Shown: positions 3,579 to 22,306 of the stretch, one piece after another | Layout of the letters: every line of letters starts with the position of its first letter | How positions within the stretch are numbered: position 1 is the first letter of the stretch | Source of the DNA: a virus | Length of the DNA stretch: 22,652 bases | Direction: 5' to 3' (one strand) | Virus record (IMG/VR): IMGVR_UViG_3300027777_000164 | Span: 1-22,652 of that record | Translations under genes and position numbers: made by a program | The notes under the pieces: generated by a model | Database searches by the model: none | What the model saw: only the letters and a program-made list of their open reading frames with translations | What the model was told of the DNA's origin: nothing

Positions 3579-6500
3579 TTACGCTGATACATCGCCACTT
3601 ATTACCCAACCAGCGTAAGCACCGGTATAAACAATAGTTGCTACAGAATACTGCTTAGTTGTTCTATAATAGCTGTTAGCTTGATTGATTGTTACACCAG
3701 CTGATGCACTTGAAAGTGAAACCCTTGCTGTACTAAGCTGAGTAACATATGTTCTAAATCCAGCAGGGTATGTGATACCAGACGATGGTAAAGCTGTAAG
3801 ACCAACATTACTTGTTGAAGCAATTGTACCGCTATTATCAGATAATTGAATTGTATAAGTTGTACCGCTTAATACTGTAATTGTTGTGCCACCAAAAATA
3901 TTACCACCAACGGTAAGATTACCTGTTATATTAACATTTCCTTGCGCACTTACGTTGTTTGTATATGTGTAGTTAGCAGCTGTAGCACTTAAACCAGTAC
4001 CTAAGATAAAAGTATTTGGATAAGCTGTGTAGTTTGCTGAACCACCAGCAATGAATGAATACGTGCCTGAGGATGTATTGTTGTAACCACCTACGATAGC
4101 GTTATACGAATTTGAAGCATTATTACATCTACCACCGCCGATGTAGGAATAAACACCGGAAGCTGTATTACCGAGACCACCACCGATAACCGCCCAAGCA
4201 CTTAAAGCTTGGTTACCAGAACCACCATTAATATTTGAAGCTAATCCAGTAGCAAGATTGCACTGACCACCGGCAATAACTGAATATTGACCTGAAGAAG
4301 TATTGTTACCAGAAGCAGGTACTATTGCTGTTGTAACCCCGCCAGTAGTGTATGGAAAATTCGATGTTGATGCTGCAGTGGCAAAAGACGATAGACTATT
4401 TGACAACGATATAACAGCTGTATTAATAGTATTAATACAGGTATTAATTGTATTGACACAATTATTAAATGTTGTCGATGTAGTAATATTGTTTAAATTA
4501 CTACCATCACCGAAGTACGTTGTAGCAAATACAGCACCAGGTGTTGAAAGATTGTTTACGTAAGTAAAATTGACTTGTCCAGCACATAGATTGGAACCTA
4601 AAATGAAAGTATTTCTAAATCCATTCGTTGTATTGCTACAACCACCGGCGATAAAGGAATATACGCCCGAAGCTGTATTACATAAACCACCATCGACAAT
4701 TGAATAATTACCAGAAGCTGTATTTGATCTTCCGTTATTGATTACTGAGAATTGACCACTTGCGTTATTACCGCCCTGAACTGGTTGTACAGAATATGTA
4801 CCGGGTCCAACTACATAAACTGTATTACCACCAACGTTTCTTAAATTCGAACCATCACCGTAAATTGCTGCAGCGCTAATATTACCTGTTGTTGTAATTG
4901 TTGTACCGCAAATAGATCCATTAGCTACAATTCCATTTGTGTAGGTTGTATTAGGTTGAGTTGCAACAATATTTGAACCAAGAACAAATGAATTTATAAC
5001 ATCAAAGTTGATGTAATTTGCTGAACCACCGGCTATGAATGAATTACAACCGACGATTGTATTACAACATCCACCAGCTATTGTTGAATTGGCACCTTGT
5101 ACAATATTACTAACACCACCAGCAACAACAGAACCGTTGCCTTGAACTGTGTTGTAGAAACCACCAGCTATTGTTGCGTAGACATTGCTAATAGTATTAT
5201 AATATCCGCCATTAATATTAGAAAAAGAACCAGTAGTGATATTATTGCACTGACCACCTTCAATGATATTGAATCTACCAGATACATTATTACAATTACC
5301 GCCACCAACAACAGTATATGGACCTGAGGCTGTATTACCAAATCCGCCACCAATTACTGCGCCTGTACCGGAACTATTATTACCACATCCACCATTAATT
5401 ACAGAAAATTGACTTGTAATAACGTTATTAGTACCACCCTCAACATTTGAATTACAACCAGTAACAGTATTGCTACCATACGTTGGTACAATTGAAGACA
5501 GGGCTGAGTTTGCTGTATAACCAATAGCTTTATTATAGAGATTACCAGTTGCTGAAATATCACCAACAACAGTTAACGCAACGTTTGGTGTAGTTGTTCC
5601 AATACCAATATTACCCTGACTTGTTACTCTAAAACGCTCACAAGCACTAAGTGTACCACCGGTATGGAAGAGAAGACTATTTGCCGTAGCTGTACCAATC
5701 GCTAGGTTACCGCCATTTATAAACAAATAACCGTCATTTGCAGCTGCAACACCATAGGCTGAATTACTATAAGCACTATTGTTAATACCAAGATTAACGA
5801 AATTTGATGAACTACCGCCATTATCAGCTGTTGCAACAAAATCTGTTGAAGCGTTAGTTCCAGCACATAAGTTTTGACCTGCAAATTGTAGATATGTATT
5901 AGAGCAAGTAGTGAATTGACCGACAGAATTTCCAAATGTAGGTGTTAGACCGAGAGGGTTTATAGCAAGATAGCCAGTATTAGCACTTAAAGTATTGATA
6001 CCCCCTTGTGAGGAAAGATTGTTTACTATTGTATAATTGGATACAGTTGAGGTGATGTTTGAACCAACTACAAATGCATTATTACCGGTAACATTATTAT
6101 TTTGACCACCTAGCACACTTGAGCAATTGCCAGAAACGACGTTATTATACCCACCAGTAATATTTGATGCACTACCTGAAACAGTATTAAGACATCCACC
6201 GAGTATTACCGCTTGACTTGTACTGGCGGTATTACCATAACCACCGCCAATTACTGAATAATTGCCTGAAGCTGTGTTACCATTACCACCGCCAATAAAT
6301 GAACTTGCACCGGTTGCATTATTATTACCGCCAGCTAGAATACCCGAATTGTTACCAATAGATTGATTACCGTAACCACCAGCGACTATTGAATAGTTAC
6401 CAGAAGCGTTATTACCATAACCACCTAAATCTGCCGCCCAATTACCTAAGGTGGTAATACCATAAGGATTTAATAAATTACCAATACCTGATACACTAGG

Positions 6501-8072
6501 AACTAATACAAGAACTTGTGCTGAAGCTTGTGCGTATGTTGTGTTATTATATGTCGGGTTATTTGTTGCACTTGTCGCAGCGACATAATTTGCTGCAGCA
6601 ACTGTACTATTCCAGCTAGCACTATTTGTATTAACTGTTGTATATGTATTGTTCCAAGCTGCACTGTTACTATTAACATTTGTATAAACATTATTACCAA
6701 TAGTATTAACAAGATTTGAACCATCTCCAAAGAATTTACCGTAAACAGTACCTTGTGAGCTAAGGTTATTTACATATACGAAATTAGCTTGTGAAGCACT
6801 GAGATTTGAACCAAGAATAAAGGTATTAGCAAACCCACTATCATTATTTGCAGATCCTGCTGCAATAAATGACGTATTACCTGAGACAATATTGTTGTAA
6901 CCACCGGCAATGTGTGAATAACTGCCTGCAGCTATGGAGCTTCTACCACCATCAATACTTGAATAGGTACCTGATGCTGTGTTATTCAATCCACCACCGA
7001 TAACGGCACCTGAGCCCGAGGCGATATTGCCAAGACCACCTACAACAACAGATGTATAATTAGTAGCGTAGTTTGACTGACCACCTACAACAGTCGAACA
7101 ATTTCCTGATGCAATATTTGCACACCCGCCAGCAACATTTGATGTCTGACCGGTAGCTGCATTTAATTGACCACCAGCGATATTTGAATAAAGCCCTGAT
7201 GCAATATTTTGATAACCACCGAGAACGGTATTAAAGGCTGATAGGGTCTGGTTACCATAACCACCACCAATATTGGAGTAGATACCAGATGCTAAATTAT
7301 TACAACCACCGACTATATTTGCGTAACAACCAGTTGCATTATTACCAGAGCCTGTTCCAATAAAAGTATAGCCACCGGAAGCGTTATTTGATGCACCGCC
7401 ACCTATGTTTGAATAATTTCCAGATGCAATATTACTCAAGCCACCTACAATACTTGAATAGTTATTTGTAACTTGGTTGCTATTACCGCCTAAAATTGAA
7501 TTATAATTACCAGATGCAGTGCTATTACCAAAATTTGGTGTAATCAGAGTACCGCTTAATATAAAGGTCTGACTTGATAGTTTAAGGTATGTTGTACTGA
7601 ATGAGGATGCTAGTGAGTAGGCTGTATTCCAGTTAGCAAAACCAGGCCCGTAAAGTGTTCCAAGAACACTCAAGCTACTTACGACTGTAGTATTTGTTGT
7701 AAAATCGTAAATTGGTACAGAGCCGTTTGTATATGGTGGATCTCCAAGATAGTTATTAAAGGCATCGTATTGGAGTCGAGATACAGGAATAGCGTAATTT
7801 ACACCGCTTAATTGTACAATGAGAGAATTTGTTGGTACAAAACTTGCATTCGCAGATAATACCGGCTGTGGTATGCTAATATTTGAGAGTGTATAGTAAT
7901 TTGTAAAAATTGAACCTGAGGCACTAAGATTACCTTGGATAACAAAATCTCCCTGAAACGGCTCAGCGTATGAAGCAATAGGATCTGTTGCAGAATCAGG
8001 ATAACCAGCTGTCGGGTTAGAGTGATGATTCTTTCTATGAAGCTTATTATGGAACCGGGCGTTGTCGGACAT
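3579..8072 (-). CDS. Giant repeat-built tail fibre protein with YadA-head-like beta-roll repeats
   Basis: The protein is 1497 aa. Most of it is 14-16-residue repeats of the form NNASGxYSxIxGG, arranged in about five blocks (roughly residues 180-420, 545-700, 880-1075, 1115-1195, 1290-1390). Most blocks are closed by a recurring module NTFILGSNLSA...YVNNLSSQG, often followed by FGDGSNL. A GNIGIGTTTPNVALTV motif occurs near residue 820. The last ~100 residues form a distinct non-repeat domain ending GAYAGWVISGDVSA. The repeats resemble the left-handed beta-roll of YadA-type trimeric adhesins, so a trimeric fibre is inferred. Many YSNI positions carry Cys instead (GCYANIVGGC), which is odd for an extracellular fibre. 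It shares modules with the partial fibre gene at 1-2488. A late motif lies 9 nt upstream of the ATG. Confidence 0.85.
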   Translation of the reverse strand: MSDNARFHNKLHRKNHHSNPTAGYPDSATDPIASYAEPFQGDFVIQGNLSASGSIFTNYYTLSNISIPQPVLSANASFVPTNSLIVQLSGVNYAIPVSRLQYDAFNNYLGDPPYTNGSVPIYDFTTNTTVVSSLSVLGTLYGPGFANWNTAYSLASSFSTTYLKLSSQTFILSGTLITPNFGNSTASGNYNSILGGNSNQVTNNYSSIVGGLSNIASGNYSNIGGGASNNASGGYTFIGTGSGNNATGCYANIVGGCNNLASGIYSNIGGGYGNQTLSAFNTVLGGYQNIASGLYSNIAGGQLNAATGQTSNVAGGCANIASGNCSTVVGGQSNYATNYTSVVVGGLGNIASGSGAVIGGGLNNTASGTYSSIDGGRSSIAAGSYSHIAGGYNNIVSGNTSFIAAGSANNDSGFANTFILGSNLSASQANFVYVNNLSSQGTVYGKFFGDGSNLVNTIGNNVYTNVNSNSAAWNNTYTTVNTNSASWNSTVAAANYVAATSATNNPTYNNTTYAQASAQVLVLVPSVSGIGNLLNPYGITTLGNWAADLGGYGNNASGNYSIVAGGYGNQSIGNNSGILAGGNNNATGASSFIGGGNGNTASGNYSVIGGGYGNTASTSQAVILGGCLNTVSGSASNITGGYNNVVSGNCSSVLGGQNNNVTGNNAFVVGSNITSTVSNYTIVNNLSSQGGINTLSANTGYLAINPLGLTPTFGNSVGQFTTCSNTYLQFAGQNLCAGTNASTDFVATADNGGSSSNFVNLGINNSAYSNSAYGVAAANDGYLFINGGNLAIGTATANSLLFHTGGTLSACERFRVTSQGNIGIGTTTPNVALTVVGDISATGNLYNKAIGYTANSALSSIVPTYGSNTVTGCNSNVEGGTNNVITSQFSVINGGCGNNSSGTGAVIGGGFGNTASGPYTVVGGGNCNNVSGRFNIIEGGQCNNITTGSFSNINGGYYNTISNVYATIAGGFYNTVQGNGSVVAGGVSNIVQGANSTIAGGCCNTIVGCNSFIAGGSANYINFDVINSFVLGSNIVATQPNTTYTNGIVANGSICGTTITTTGNISAAAIYGDGSNLRNVGGNTVYVVGPGTYSVQPVQGGNNASGQFSVINNGRSNTASGNYSIVDGGLCNTASGVYSFIAGGCSNTTNGFRNTFILGSNLCAGQVNFTYVNNLSTPGAVFATTYFGDGSNLNNITTSTTFNNCVNTINTCINTINTAVISLSNSLSSFATAASTSNFPYTTGGVTTAIVPASGNNTSSGQYSVIAGGQCNLATGLASNINGGSGNQALSAWAVIGGGLGNTASGVYSYIGGGRCNNASNSYNAIVGGYNNTSSGTYSFIAGGSANYTAYPNTFILGTGLSATAANYTYTNNVSAQGNVNITGNLTVGGNIFGGTTITVLSGTTYTIQLSDNSGTIASTSNVGLTALPSSGITYPAGFRTYVTQLSTARVSLSSASAGVTINQANSYYRTTKQYSVATIVYTGAYAGWVISGDVSA

Positions 8073-15104: not shown

Positions 15105-15191
15105 GGGTCATTATACTATTAAAGACATAGCTCGGACTGTAAATCCGATGTTCATTGAACTGGCTAGGAGCGTTACCTAGATGGCCCACCA
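15105..15191 (+). tRNA. tRNA-Tyr (GTA) with non-canonical elbow
   Basis: Acceptor GGGTCAT/ATGGCCC, anticodon arm TCGGA-CTGTAAA-TCCGA, long variable arm GTTC-ATT-GAAC, T-stem CTAGG/CCTAG, discriminator A and encoded CCA. The T-loop is AGCGTTA instead of TTCRANN. The D-loop (TAAAGAC) has no GG, and four rather than two bases join acceptor and D-stem. It shares the T-loop type with the tRNA-Ile at 17641. Confidence 0.75.
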
Positions 15192-16450: not shown

Positions 16451-17035
16451 ATGCAAACTATAGATCATATTCTACCAGTCGCGGATTTCTATAATTTTCA
16501 GCATTATATCATGTCATTTGACTTTCCATGGAATTATGGGAGAAAAGCAACTAGAGAAGTTGATGATAAGGAAAACCCGTTCCTTGTAGGATGGCAATGT
16601 ATTGCGTTCAATCACGGAAAGTGGTTGTATGATCCTCATCGCTTTATTGAAAACACTGTCAATAAAGTTCTTACTAATGCTAATGAAAAAGTTAGTACGC
16701 TTCTTAGAGTACGTTTAATTCTCAATACAGTGTCTGACGGTCCTTATGAAAACGGTGTTCATATTGATGAGAGCGTTCCACATAAAACAGCTCTTCTTTA
16801 TCTTAATGACTCTGATGGTGAAACAATTATCTATAATGAAAAGTATGATCATACATCGAACTTTGTACCTGATACGTACTTTAAAGCTAATGTACAACAG
16901 CCAACTGTTCTTGAGAAAATAACGGCTAAGGCAAATAAGCTTTGCATTTTTGACGGTTTACATTATCATACAGGTACTCTTCCAACAAAAACAGCAAGAA
17001 GAGTTGTAATGAATATTAATTATATTTCTGCTTGA
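16451..17035 (+). CDS. 2-oxoglutarate/Fe(II)-dependent oxygenase
   Basis: The protein is 194 aa. The iron triad is HID (H104, D106) and a distal His in LHYHTGTLP (H171 or H173), followed by the 2OG-binding Arg (R183/R184) in TARRVVMNIN. The strand pattern between them (KTALLYLNDSDGETIIY) is typical of the double-stranded beta-helix of P4H-like and phage 2OG-Fe(II) oxygenases. The substrate is unknown; phage members may act on nucleic acid bases or on proteins. It is preceded by its own promoter with no room for an SD. The next element is the promoter of the tmRNA, so it appears to be a single-gene unit. Confidence 0.8.
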   Translation: MQTIDHILPVADFYNFQHYIMSFDFPWNYGRKATREVDDKENPFLVGWQCIAFNHGKWLYDPHRFIENTVNKVLTNANEKVSTLLRVRLILNTVSDGPYENGVHIDESVPHKTALLYLNDSDGETIIYNEKYDHTSNFVPDTYFKANVQQPTVLEKITAKANKLCIFDGLHYHTGTLPTKTARRVVMNINYISA

Positions 17036-17640: not shown

Positions 17641-17714
17641 CCTCTGATAGTTTATTAGCAAAACCAGCGATTGATAATCGCTAGAGCGAGGAGCGTAACC
17701 TCGTCAGAGGACCA
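17641..17714 (+). tRNA. tRNA-Ile (GAT) with non-canonical elbow
   Basis: A full cloverleaf: acceptor CCTCTGA/TCAGAGG, D-stem GTTT/AAAC, anticodon arm AGCGA-TTGATAA-TCGCT, T-stem CGAGG/CCTCG, ACCA encoded. The T-loop is AGCGTAA (no TTC) and the D-loop ATTAGCA has no GG. The T-loop matches that of the tRNA-Tyr at 15105 although the stems differ, which argues for conservation rather than decay. Confidence 0.8.
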
Positions 17715-18089: not shown

Positions 18090-18647
18090 CAATTTGACTA
18101 GGCGCAGGTCTTGAAAGCTAAAAGACTCCCGCGATAGGTGATAGCGAAGCATTCGGCCGAGTGAACGTGTAGCCTGTAAGATAAACCTCCGCGAAAGCGA
18201 ATGAGATTTTCTAGTCATACAAATTTGATTACTGCGTATAGTTCTCGGTAGTAGCAATACTAGTCCGAAGCCGCGGGTAAGAGCGAAAGCTCTAAACTTC
18301 CTAGCTCCGATAGGCCAGTAATCATTACAATTAAGTTCCCGCGTTGTAGGTATAATCTGCGGGAGAGATACGTTGAGTTGTCTGCTGGTAAGTTAGTAGA
18401 CGTATCTTAAGAGGGGGAGCCAAAAACTTACATACAGCTTTGATCCCTTGCTTTATTAAACACAGACTGGACGGCGCGCTGGCTCCATGCCGGTACCCGT
18501 TGAGGAAAGAACAAAATCCGGAACAAAAGCTTTTCAACTACCACAAATTTCTTTAGTAATGCTACCAGTTGCCGGTCTCAAGTCCGGAAAGGAATCGCTA
18601 TCCCTAAAATGCAGAGAGCAAAGAAAAGAAAGCAGAGTTCGAACTCA

Positions 18648-19997: not shown

Positions 19998-20033
19998 CCC
20001 TCGGTGCCTCCTAACAATGCATACTTCCGAGGG
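19998..20033 (+). terminator. Hairpin CCCTCGG/CCGAGGG, possible terminator
   Basis: Seven perfect pairs with a 22-nt loop, followed by TGTTCTTTG, a weak T-tract, just before tRNA-Gly. It could instead be an RNA-processing stem. Confidence 0.5.
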
Positions 20034-20041
20034 TGTTCTTT

Positions 20042-20117
20042 GCGGGTGTAGCTCAGTTGGTAGAGCACAACTTTGCCAAAGTTGACGTCGCCAGTTCGAA
20101 CCTGGTCACCCGCTCCA
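20042..20117 (+). tRNA. tRNA-Gly (GCC)
   Basis: Acceptor GCGGGTG/CACCCGC, D-arm GCTC/GAGC with GG, anticodon arm CAACT-TTGCCAA-AGTTG, T-arm GCCAG-TTCGAAC-CTGGT, TCCA end encoded. A canonical tRNA. Confidence 0.96.
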
Positions 20118-20147
20118 ATAAAGTAGTAAATACACTTTCGATTAGAC

Positions 20148-20153
20148 TAAATA
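20148..20153 (+). promoter_or_regulatory. Late-type promoter CTAAATA placed for a leaderless GTG
   Basis: TTAGACTAAATA, exactly 5 nt (ATAGT), then GTG 20159. This settles the start of the HNH gene. Confidence 0.55.
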
Positions 20154-20158
20154 ATAGT

Positions 20159-20677
20159 GTGAATTTAATCGATAAAATATGCCCTGTATGCAATACAATA
20201 TATCAGGTTAACCGCAATCATAAATATCAAAAAACTGTTTGCTCAAAAAGTTGTTCACATAGTTTTTATGTAAGACGAAAAACAGTTAGAGTAAAGACAT
20301 TTATATGTCAAACATGCGGTAAAGAAGATAAGAGATTATACGGTAGCAGTAACAAGTTTTGCAGTGTAGCTTGCAAAACCACCTATAACCAACAAGATGT
20401 AATTAATCGTTTTTATCGTGGTGAGATACATGATAGACACACGCTACGTAGAGCGTTAAAGGCTGAACGGGGTTATAATTGTAGCCAATGTAGTATATCT
20501 GATTGGAATAAAAAACCTATAACGTTACAAGTAAATCATATAGATGGTAACTGCACGAATAATATGCCTGAAAATTTAGAATTGATTTGCCCTAACTGTC
20601 ACTCGCAAACAGATACGTTCGGTGCTAAAAATAAAGGCAACGGCCGTAAAGCAAGAGGCTTGCCACTTCATTATTGA
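20159..20677 (+). CDS. HNH endonuclease with N-terminal zinc-finger pairs
   Basis: The protein is 172 aa from GTG 20159. The open frame extends upstream into tRNA-Gly, giving a misleading AGVAQLVEH-type N-terminus, so that extension is rejected. Two Cys4 units come first (C8/C11/C28/C32 and C50/C53/C68/C72), then CxxC (108/111) and the HNH core: NHIDGN (H127), ENLELICPNCHSQT (N139, C144, C147, H148). The tail GAKNKGNGRKARG is basic. HNH proteins of this type are common mobile homing-like endonucleases in phage tRNA clusters; here it lies between tRNA-Gly and tRNA-Pro. A broken relative lies after tRNA-Tyr at 15192. Confidence 0.85.
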   Translation: MNLIDKICPVCNTIYQVNRNHKYQKTVCSKSCSHSFYVRRKTVRVKTFICQTCGKEDKRLYGSSNKFCSVACKTTYNQQDVINRFYRGEIHDRHTLRRALKAERGYNCSQCSISDWNKKPITLQVNHIDGNCTNNMPENLELICPNCHSQTDTFGAKNKGNGRKARGLPLHY

Positions 20678-22219: not shown

Positions 22220-22306
22220 GGAAGTTTGGCAGAGCGGTCTAATGCAGCGGTTTACTAAACCGCAGAGGCTTCATCGCCTCCGAGGGTTCGAATCCCTCAG
22301 CTTCCT
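22220..22306 (+). tRNA. tRNA-Ser with anticodon ACT
   Basis: Acceptor GGAAGTT/AGCTTCC, D-arm GCA/TGC, anticodon arm GCGGT-TTACTAA-ACCGC, long variable arm GAGGC/GCCTC, T-arm GAGGG-TTCGAAT-CCCTC. The anticodon is ACT (reads AGU), where bacteria normally use GCT. Discriminator T; CCA not encoded. Confidence 0.88.

Follow-up and report, generated by a model that had tools for sequence, protein, structure and literature searches.

Three elbow contacts of tRNA, G18-Psi55, G19-C56 and T54-A58, pass for near-universal, and tRNA finders, covariance models and the teaching of tRNA structure all assume them. Suppressor tRNAs with altered D and T regions were reportedly selected by Steinberg and colleagues, and the laboratory may already have produced some alternative elbows. 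The nearest known exceptions to the swapped elbow described here are tRNA-Pyl (PMC6337575) and the A54-A58 of the eukaryotic initiator tRNA (PMC7912444). Both tRNA-Pyl and the ZtRNA scaffolds are working tRNAs with D/T-loop contacts other than G18-Psi55 and G19-C56 (PMC6337575). However, neither interloop pair is present in tRNA-Pyl, whose anticodon stem has 6 bp and which retains U54-A58, whereas in swapped-elbow tRNAs the pairs are exchanged, many isotypes are involved and the anticodon stem has 5 bp. The initiator A54-A58 is a natural exception at 54-58 (PMC7912444) in a single isotype, and differs from the A-U and G-G found at 54-58 together with a changed 18-55 in swapped-elbow tRNAs.

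Two further groups of tRNAs are relevant as a comparison. Phage tRNAs that resist tRNA-targeting defences are altered relative to those of the host, and tRNA-Tyr is a known target of such defences (PMC11555353, PMC13096335, PMC10264068); the retron-Eco7 and Septu nucleases cut it in the variable loop (PMC11555353, PMC13096335). In the known cases it is the anticodon loop, the variable loop or the dose that is altered, and a change in the elbow is not mentioned. Dense tRNA clusters known as tRNA array units occur on phages and in bacterial genomes (PMC5966550, PMC6409571), and no mention of altered elbows in connection with the T-loop or D-loop was found in the two papers. Among open-licence papers, we found no description of A18/G55 elbows.

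Results

The window, a stretch of 22,652 nucleotides comprising positions 1 to 22,652 of IMG/VR virus record IMGVR_UViG_3300027777_000164, contains a tRNA-Tyr gene (Table 1) that starts 9 nt after the stop codon of the upstream CDS. Its first half reads GGGTCAT-TATA-CTAT-TAAAGAC-ATAG-C-TCGGA-CTGTAAA-TCCGA and its second half TGTTCATTGAACTGG-CTAGG-AGCGTTA-CCTAG-ATGGCCC-ACCA. Direct reading confirmed the intact stems, long variable arm, GTA anticodon and ACCA end given in a preliminary description of this DNA. The seven acceptor pairs include one G.U, and the 7/5/5 stems, the GUA in a 7-nt loop with U33, the long variable arm and the CCA are those of a bacterial-type tRNA-Tyr.

Table 1. Features of the window discussed in the text, in positions of the window
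Feature	Position	Strand	Remarks
Upstream CDS, 202 aa	14487..15095	+	Marks syntenic site; relatives in IMG/VR
tRNA-Tyr (GUA), swapped elbow	15105..15191	+	87 nt, encoded CCA; read directly and by structural scan
Acceptor stem, 5' strand GGGTCAT	15105..15111	+	Pairs with 15181-15187; compensated across family
4-nt linker TATA, acceptor to D-stem	15112..15115	+	Begins U8 A9; structural scan
D-arm, stem CTAT/ATAG, loop TAAAGAC	15116..15130	+	Predicted A18 G19, no GG
Anticodon arm TCGGA-CTGTAAA-TCCGA	15132..15148	+	Anticodon GTA; stem pairs compensated in relatives
Long variable arm TGTTCATTGAACTGG	15149..15163	+	Class II, as in bacterial tRNA-Tyr
T-arm CTAGG-AGCGTTA-CCTAG	15164..15180	+	A54 G55 C56 G57 U58 U59 A60
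A73 discriminator and encoded CCA	15188..15191	+	Direct reading
tRNA-Ile(GAU), second swapped elbow	17641..17714	+	T-loop AGCGTAA, D-loop ATTAGCA (A18 G19)

The GUA anticodon, A73, long variable arm and encoded CCA are shared with canonical bacterial class II tRNA-Tyr. By contrast, the window tRNA has A54, G55, U58, A60 and A18 where the canonical tRNA has T54, Psi55, A58, Y60 and G18, and it has a 4-nt linker before the D-stem and a 7-nt D-loop. The usual linker between acceptor and D-stem in tRNA is 2 nt, so the UAUA linker is an additional oddity, one that the preliminary description had not included. With UAAAGAC and AGCGUUA as its loops, the gene lacks the canonical combination of GG in the D-loop and UUC in the T-loop. 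The earlier claim that the T-loop TTC is replaced holds for positions 54 and 55, and 58 and 60 differ as well, but C56 and purine 57 are unchanged. Similarly, the D-loop has no GG and G18 has become A, but an AG is present there, so that G19 is very probably retained. The outer pair G19-C56 may persist: C56 is present, the AG fits A18 G19, and class-wide covariation (below) agrees. The 5-bp anticodon stem and 15-nt variable arm do not fit a tRNA-Pyl scaffold, where the stem has 6 bp and the extra domain 3 nt.

This tRNA-Tyr did not reach the detection threshold of RF00005 or ARAGORN and was reported neither by ARAGORN nor by Rfam in permissive mode (E up to 1). In the same window ARAGORN reported 11 other tRNAs and Rfam most of those plus a tmRNA; the tRNA-Ile(GAU) with a swapped elbow was detected by both. 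The folding energy of the tRNA-Tyr (z = -1.44) is by itself a weak and indecisive indicator. ARAGORN recovered 987/993 canonical class I tRNAs, 95/173 class I tRNAs with G55/C56, 19/46 class II tRNAs with G55 and 5/17 of the swapped Tyr type. Because ARAGORN recovers so few G55 tRNAs, detection bias is a likely cause of the obscurity of swapped elbows. With about half of G55 tRNAs recovered by this program, counts of phage tRNAs are too low. When the locus was compared with named phages by blastn, no match appeared at the default limit; a 121-base query matched a Felixounavirus tRNA-Tyr (77% over part), the T-loop of which is canonical in the record.

To place the gene among its relatives, we scanned IMG/VR with a pattern of anticodon loop, AGCGTTA and ACCA. 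This matched 88 stretches, and in 61 of the 88, 15 or more of the 17 stem pairs form. In a second IMG/VR pattern the shortest gap allowed was one base too long for the window tRNA; its matches are still included. After later searches were added there were 42 distinct relatives, with pairs compensated in all four stems. At pair 5 of the anticodon stem, for instance, A-U occurs in 20, U-A in 15, C-G in 6 and G-C in 1. G1-C72, a further feature in common with canonical bacterial tRNA-Tyr, is found in 36/42 and a 4-letter linker starting with TA in 41/42. The search patterns fix the T-loop, A73 and CCA, and two of them also fix TAAAGA and GG/CC; this limits the reading of A73 (42/42), of G52-C62 and G53-C61 (42/42) and of the D-loop TAAAGA (40/42). 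With the D-loop motif near-invariant and the T-loop fixed by pattern, no coupling of 18 and 55 can be read within this family. We looked for relatives with progressive loss of the stems in the tRNA-Tyr family and found none. Core positions 14 and 15-48 also depart from the norm, and a model of a re-paired elbow may therefore understate how far the D-domain differs. The family's D-loop starts with U rather than A. Acceptor pair 7-66 is U-A in the window, but 19 of the 42 relatives have G.A there and 4 have A.G.

The upstream CDS has no PHROG match. In locus L009 it is 88% identical in amino acids, and the flanks are 82.5% identical in nucleotides over 3.7 kb (a difference of ~17%); the tRNA-Tyr copy in L009 and L366 is identical to that of the window (87/87). 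L366, the contig of this close relative, also carries at 4748 and 4827 a tRNA-Lys(UUU) with AGCGTTA and a tRNA-Arg(UCU) that combines TTTGAAT with GA in the D-loop. A canonical tRNA-Tyr, with a T-loop of UUCGAGU or UUCGAAU, occupies the same site after the CDS in L010 (CDS 77%) and L011 (CDS 71%), which places the window gene in synteny with accepted tRNA-Tyr genes. In L105 (CDS 55%) there is no tRNA directly 3' of the CDS. Near-identical swapped tRNA-Tyr genes in L027 and L081 lie next to a ThiS/MoaD-like reading frame and not the 202-aa CDS. Because these copies adjoin different genes, the swapped tRNA-Tyr is, judged by its neighbourhoods, a gene that moves horizontally between phages, and at the site in the window it was probably imported and did not evolve in place.

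The AGCGTTA T-loop occurs with many anticodons, and we examined how the two loops vary together by scanning every fetched locus for cloverleaves under relaxed rules, with complete acceptor, anticodon and T stems required and G.U allowed. Many loci were fetched since they hold swapped tRNAs; seeds were left out of the covariation counts, and prevalence figures are rough. The scan gave 1,503 tRNAs outside seeds in 3.2 Mb, and no cloverleaf was matched when all the loci were Markov-shuffled. U55/C56 occurred with GG in 0.99 (n = 1257) and G55/C56 with AG in 0.99 (n = 191); GG was present in 8% of the latter, mostly as AGG in a smaller set inspected singly. AG was absent from only 1/220 G55/C56 tRNAs. 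In the minor classes U55/U56 occurred with GA in 0.89 (n = 19; A19 partner), U55/A56 with GU in 0.90 (n = 10; U19 partner), U55/G56 with GC in 0.60 (n = 5), G55/G56 with AC in 0.75 (n = 4), G55/U56 with AA in 2/2, G55/A56 with AU in 2/2 and C55/C56 with GG in 11/11. The minor classes were as predicted in 47/54, compared with a permutation mean of 21.8 and a maximum of 34 in 2000. Positions 19 and 56 therefore covary in the Watson-Crick manner, and 18-55 is either G.U (or G-C) or A.G.

Within the T-loop, 54-58 was U-A in 1313 tRNAs, A-U in 90, G-G in 58, A-A in 17 and C-A in 13. Position 60 tracks this pair: A-U and G-G occur with A60, and U-A with a pyrimidine. The elbow contacts vary independently, since ATCGTTA retains GG and TGCRANT retains U54-A58. 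Near-identical G55 and U55 partners, compared over stems and anticodon only, differ in both loops. Thr(GGU) of L322 and L308 (94% identical) has TAAAAGTAT/AGCGTTA versus TAAAGGCAT/ATCGTTA, and Phe(GAA) of L155 and L351 (79% identical) has AATCTAGTGAA/AGCGTAA versus AATCTGGTGAA/ATCGTAA. Two Val genes in one cluster of Brevundimonas phage Kikimora have AAGTAGAAA/TGCGATT versus AAGTGGTAA/TTCGATT. At the level of sequence, such joint switching of 18 and 55 is a signature of compensation and not of decay.

Swapped-elbow tRNAs represent 19 amino acids, and as predicted structures they recur in phages and certain bacterial tRNA clusters with almost the whole range of amino acids. Named carriers are Streptomyces phage Jay2Jay (tRNA-His), phage Kikimora (tRNA-Val, tRNA-Leu) and phage T5. 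In T5 tRNA-Ile1 (L153 13211-13287), the T-loop TTTAAAT and D-loop GA give A19-U56 in place of G19-C56, and the record's annotation states that anticodon replacement makes it an amber suppressor. The least biased estimate of prevalence comes from 93 phage loci picked for canonical tRNA-Tyr, where G55 occurs in 16/642 other tRNAs.

Among the genome contigs scanned, 17 assemblies of bacteria or archaea carry the swapped Tyr type, most of them from Verrucomicrobiota and Clostridia. The Verrucomicrobiota array loci are L368/L369 (a Chthoniobacter flavus contig), G005:C4, G006:C712 and G016:C61. In Chthoniobacter flavus, Brevifollis, an Akkermansiaceae MAG and a Verrucomicrobiaceae MAG, a TROVE/Ro60 gene is no more than 8 kb from the swapped tRNA-Tyr, and RtcB lies within about 18 kb in the first three; the Chthoniobacter flavus locus also encodes RlaP together with an SPFH protein and an AAA ATPase. 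The neighbouring genes gave no evident sign that the Chthoniobacter array came from a prophage. RtcB on the same contig as Clostridia arrays is 22-75 kb away and was not counted as linked. The exact Tyr pattern was absent from 386 other Verrucomicrobiota genomes sampled, so the swapped Tyr type is accessory there and no trait of the lineage. Ro60 was present on only 2/15 phage contigs with swapped-elbow tRNAs; the link to RNA repair is therefore not general.

Discussion

The cloverleaf, the family, the coupling of the D- and T-loops, their joint switching and the spread over isotypes can be read in these sequences. We accept the gene as a tRNA-Tyr because of its canonical counterparts at the same site in L010 and L011, the identical copy in L009, the 61/88 stretches with stems and the zero matches in shuffled DNA. 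Most probably it is a genuine phage elongator tRNA-Tyr with the usual L fold and a re-paired elbow. D/T-loop coupling and joint switches at 18 and 55 point to the pairs A18.G55, G19-C56 and A54.U58. A18.G55 would take the place of G18.Psi55, and A54.U58, with A60, that of T54.A58; purine 57 is unchanged, and at the surface the outer pair G19-C56 would persist. With this surface pair in place, a normal corner would still be presented to the ribosome, RNase P and TyrRS. TrmA acts on U54 and TruB on U55, and these enzymes would find no such base to modify. The window tRNA would be one of a class of swapped-elbow tRNAs in tRNA-rich phages and some bacterial arrays. The geometry of the pairs and the charging of these tRNAs are predicted. 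Their use in translation is favoured because of the isotype coverage, the intact anticodons, the CCA and the T5 annotation.

The preliminary description had proposed a different elbow in place of random decay, from the loss of both partners together. The first part is borne out, since across 1,503 tRNAs a change in one loop goes closely with a change in the other, and both occur jointly in near-identical sister tRNAs; as to the loss, the inner partners did change together, but they are exchanged and not lost, and the outer G19-C56 is probably retained. A decaying pseudogene, left after the phage no longer needed tRNA-Tyr, is highly improbable. Such a gene might be overlooked by ARAGORN and Rfam, as this one is, and some phage tRNAs found by similarity have been deposited as pseudo-tRNAs; however, the stems are perfect, the gene is identical over 87/87 positions despite ~17% divergence of its flanks, and the 42 relatives maintain their stems by compensatory change while the loop changes are coupled. 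The complementarity of UAA in the D-loop and UUA in the T-loop (58-60), seen in the window tRNA and its family, could mean that a short kissing helix replaces the interdigitated elbow. We consider this quite unlikely and rank it below the exchange of pairs: the classes TGCRANU, GGCAGCA and CGCGAUA share the D-loop AG without that complementarity, whereas the coupling of 55/56 to 18/19 accounts for all classes at once.

Swapped-elbow tRNAs could also act mainly as decoys or sacrificial substrates for tRNA-targeting defences and not in translation. Retron-Eco7 and Septu are both known to be countered by phage tRNA-Tyr (PMC11555353, PMC13096335), and Ro60 is close to the arrays of four Verrucomicrobiota genomes, with RtcB nearby as well in three. 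Yet nearly all isotypes are involved, beyond Tyr or Lys, and a decoy need not retain the anticodons, discriminator and CCA that are retained here, nor the surface G19-C56 that probably is. In addition, T5 tRNA-Ile1, with its swapped 19-56, is reported to be active in translation after an anticodon change, a functional hint that belongs to the A19-U56 class and not to A18.G55. A decoy role therefore seems unlikely to us.

With the re-paired elbow as the preferred reading, one can speculate that the swap provides a back-up set of tRNAs better shielded from host enzymes or nucleases recognising the standard elbow. The proximity of arrays to the RNA-repair genes Ro60/RtcB in four Verrucomicrobiota genomes fits a back-up set for use upon tRNA damage and hints at one. 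By analogy with defence-resisting phage tRNAs, an elbow change might give resistance to nucleases. It is a tentative proposal, which we hold doubtful, that phages and arrays carry a parallel, near-complete set of recoded-elbow tRNAs, in some bacteria beside Ro60-RtcB, that uses the ordinary ribosome, escapes the host's Psi55/T54 modifications and is less exposed to enzymes that recognise the usual elbow.

These data indicate that the elbow, presented in teaching as universal, is open to change and that standard gene finders often miss such tRNAs. Hundreds of natural partner-swapped tRNAs amount to a covariation experiment on the elbow that is impossible with cellular tRNAs, because elbow positions hardly vary there. 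If swapped tRNAs translate, they allow direct tests of what Psi55 and T54 do, of how RNase P and synthetases recognise the elbow and of whether tRNA-targeting defences are evaded, and Jay2Jay and Kikimora are culturable phages for such tests.

Other features of the window

On the minus strand, 3579-8072 encodes a 1497-aa protein of ASGxYSxIxGG-like repeats, akin to adhesin head or tail-fibre repeats. The PHROG match of 16451-17035 is endonuclease V; its His/Asp spacing looks like that of a 2OG-Fe(II) oxygenase. A twister-P1 ribozyme match at 18553-18622 is below threshold (31 bits versus a cut-off of 67). An HNH-like reading frame at 20033-20677 overlaps a tRNA-Gly at 20042-20117, and a tRNA-Ser at 22220-22306 has the anticodon ACT (A34), which is unusual among bacterial-type serine tRNAs.
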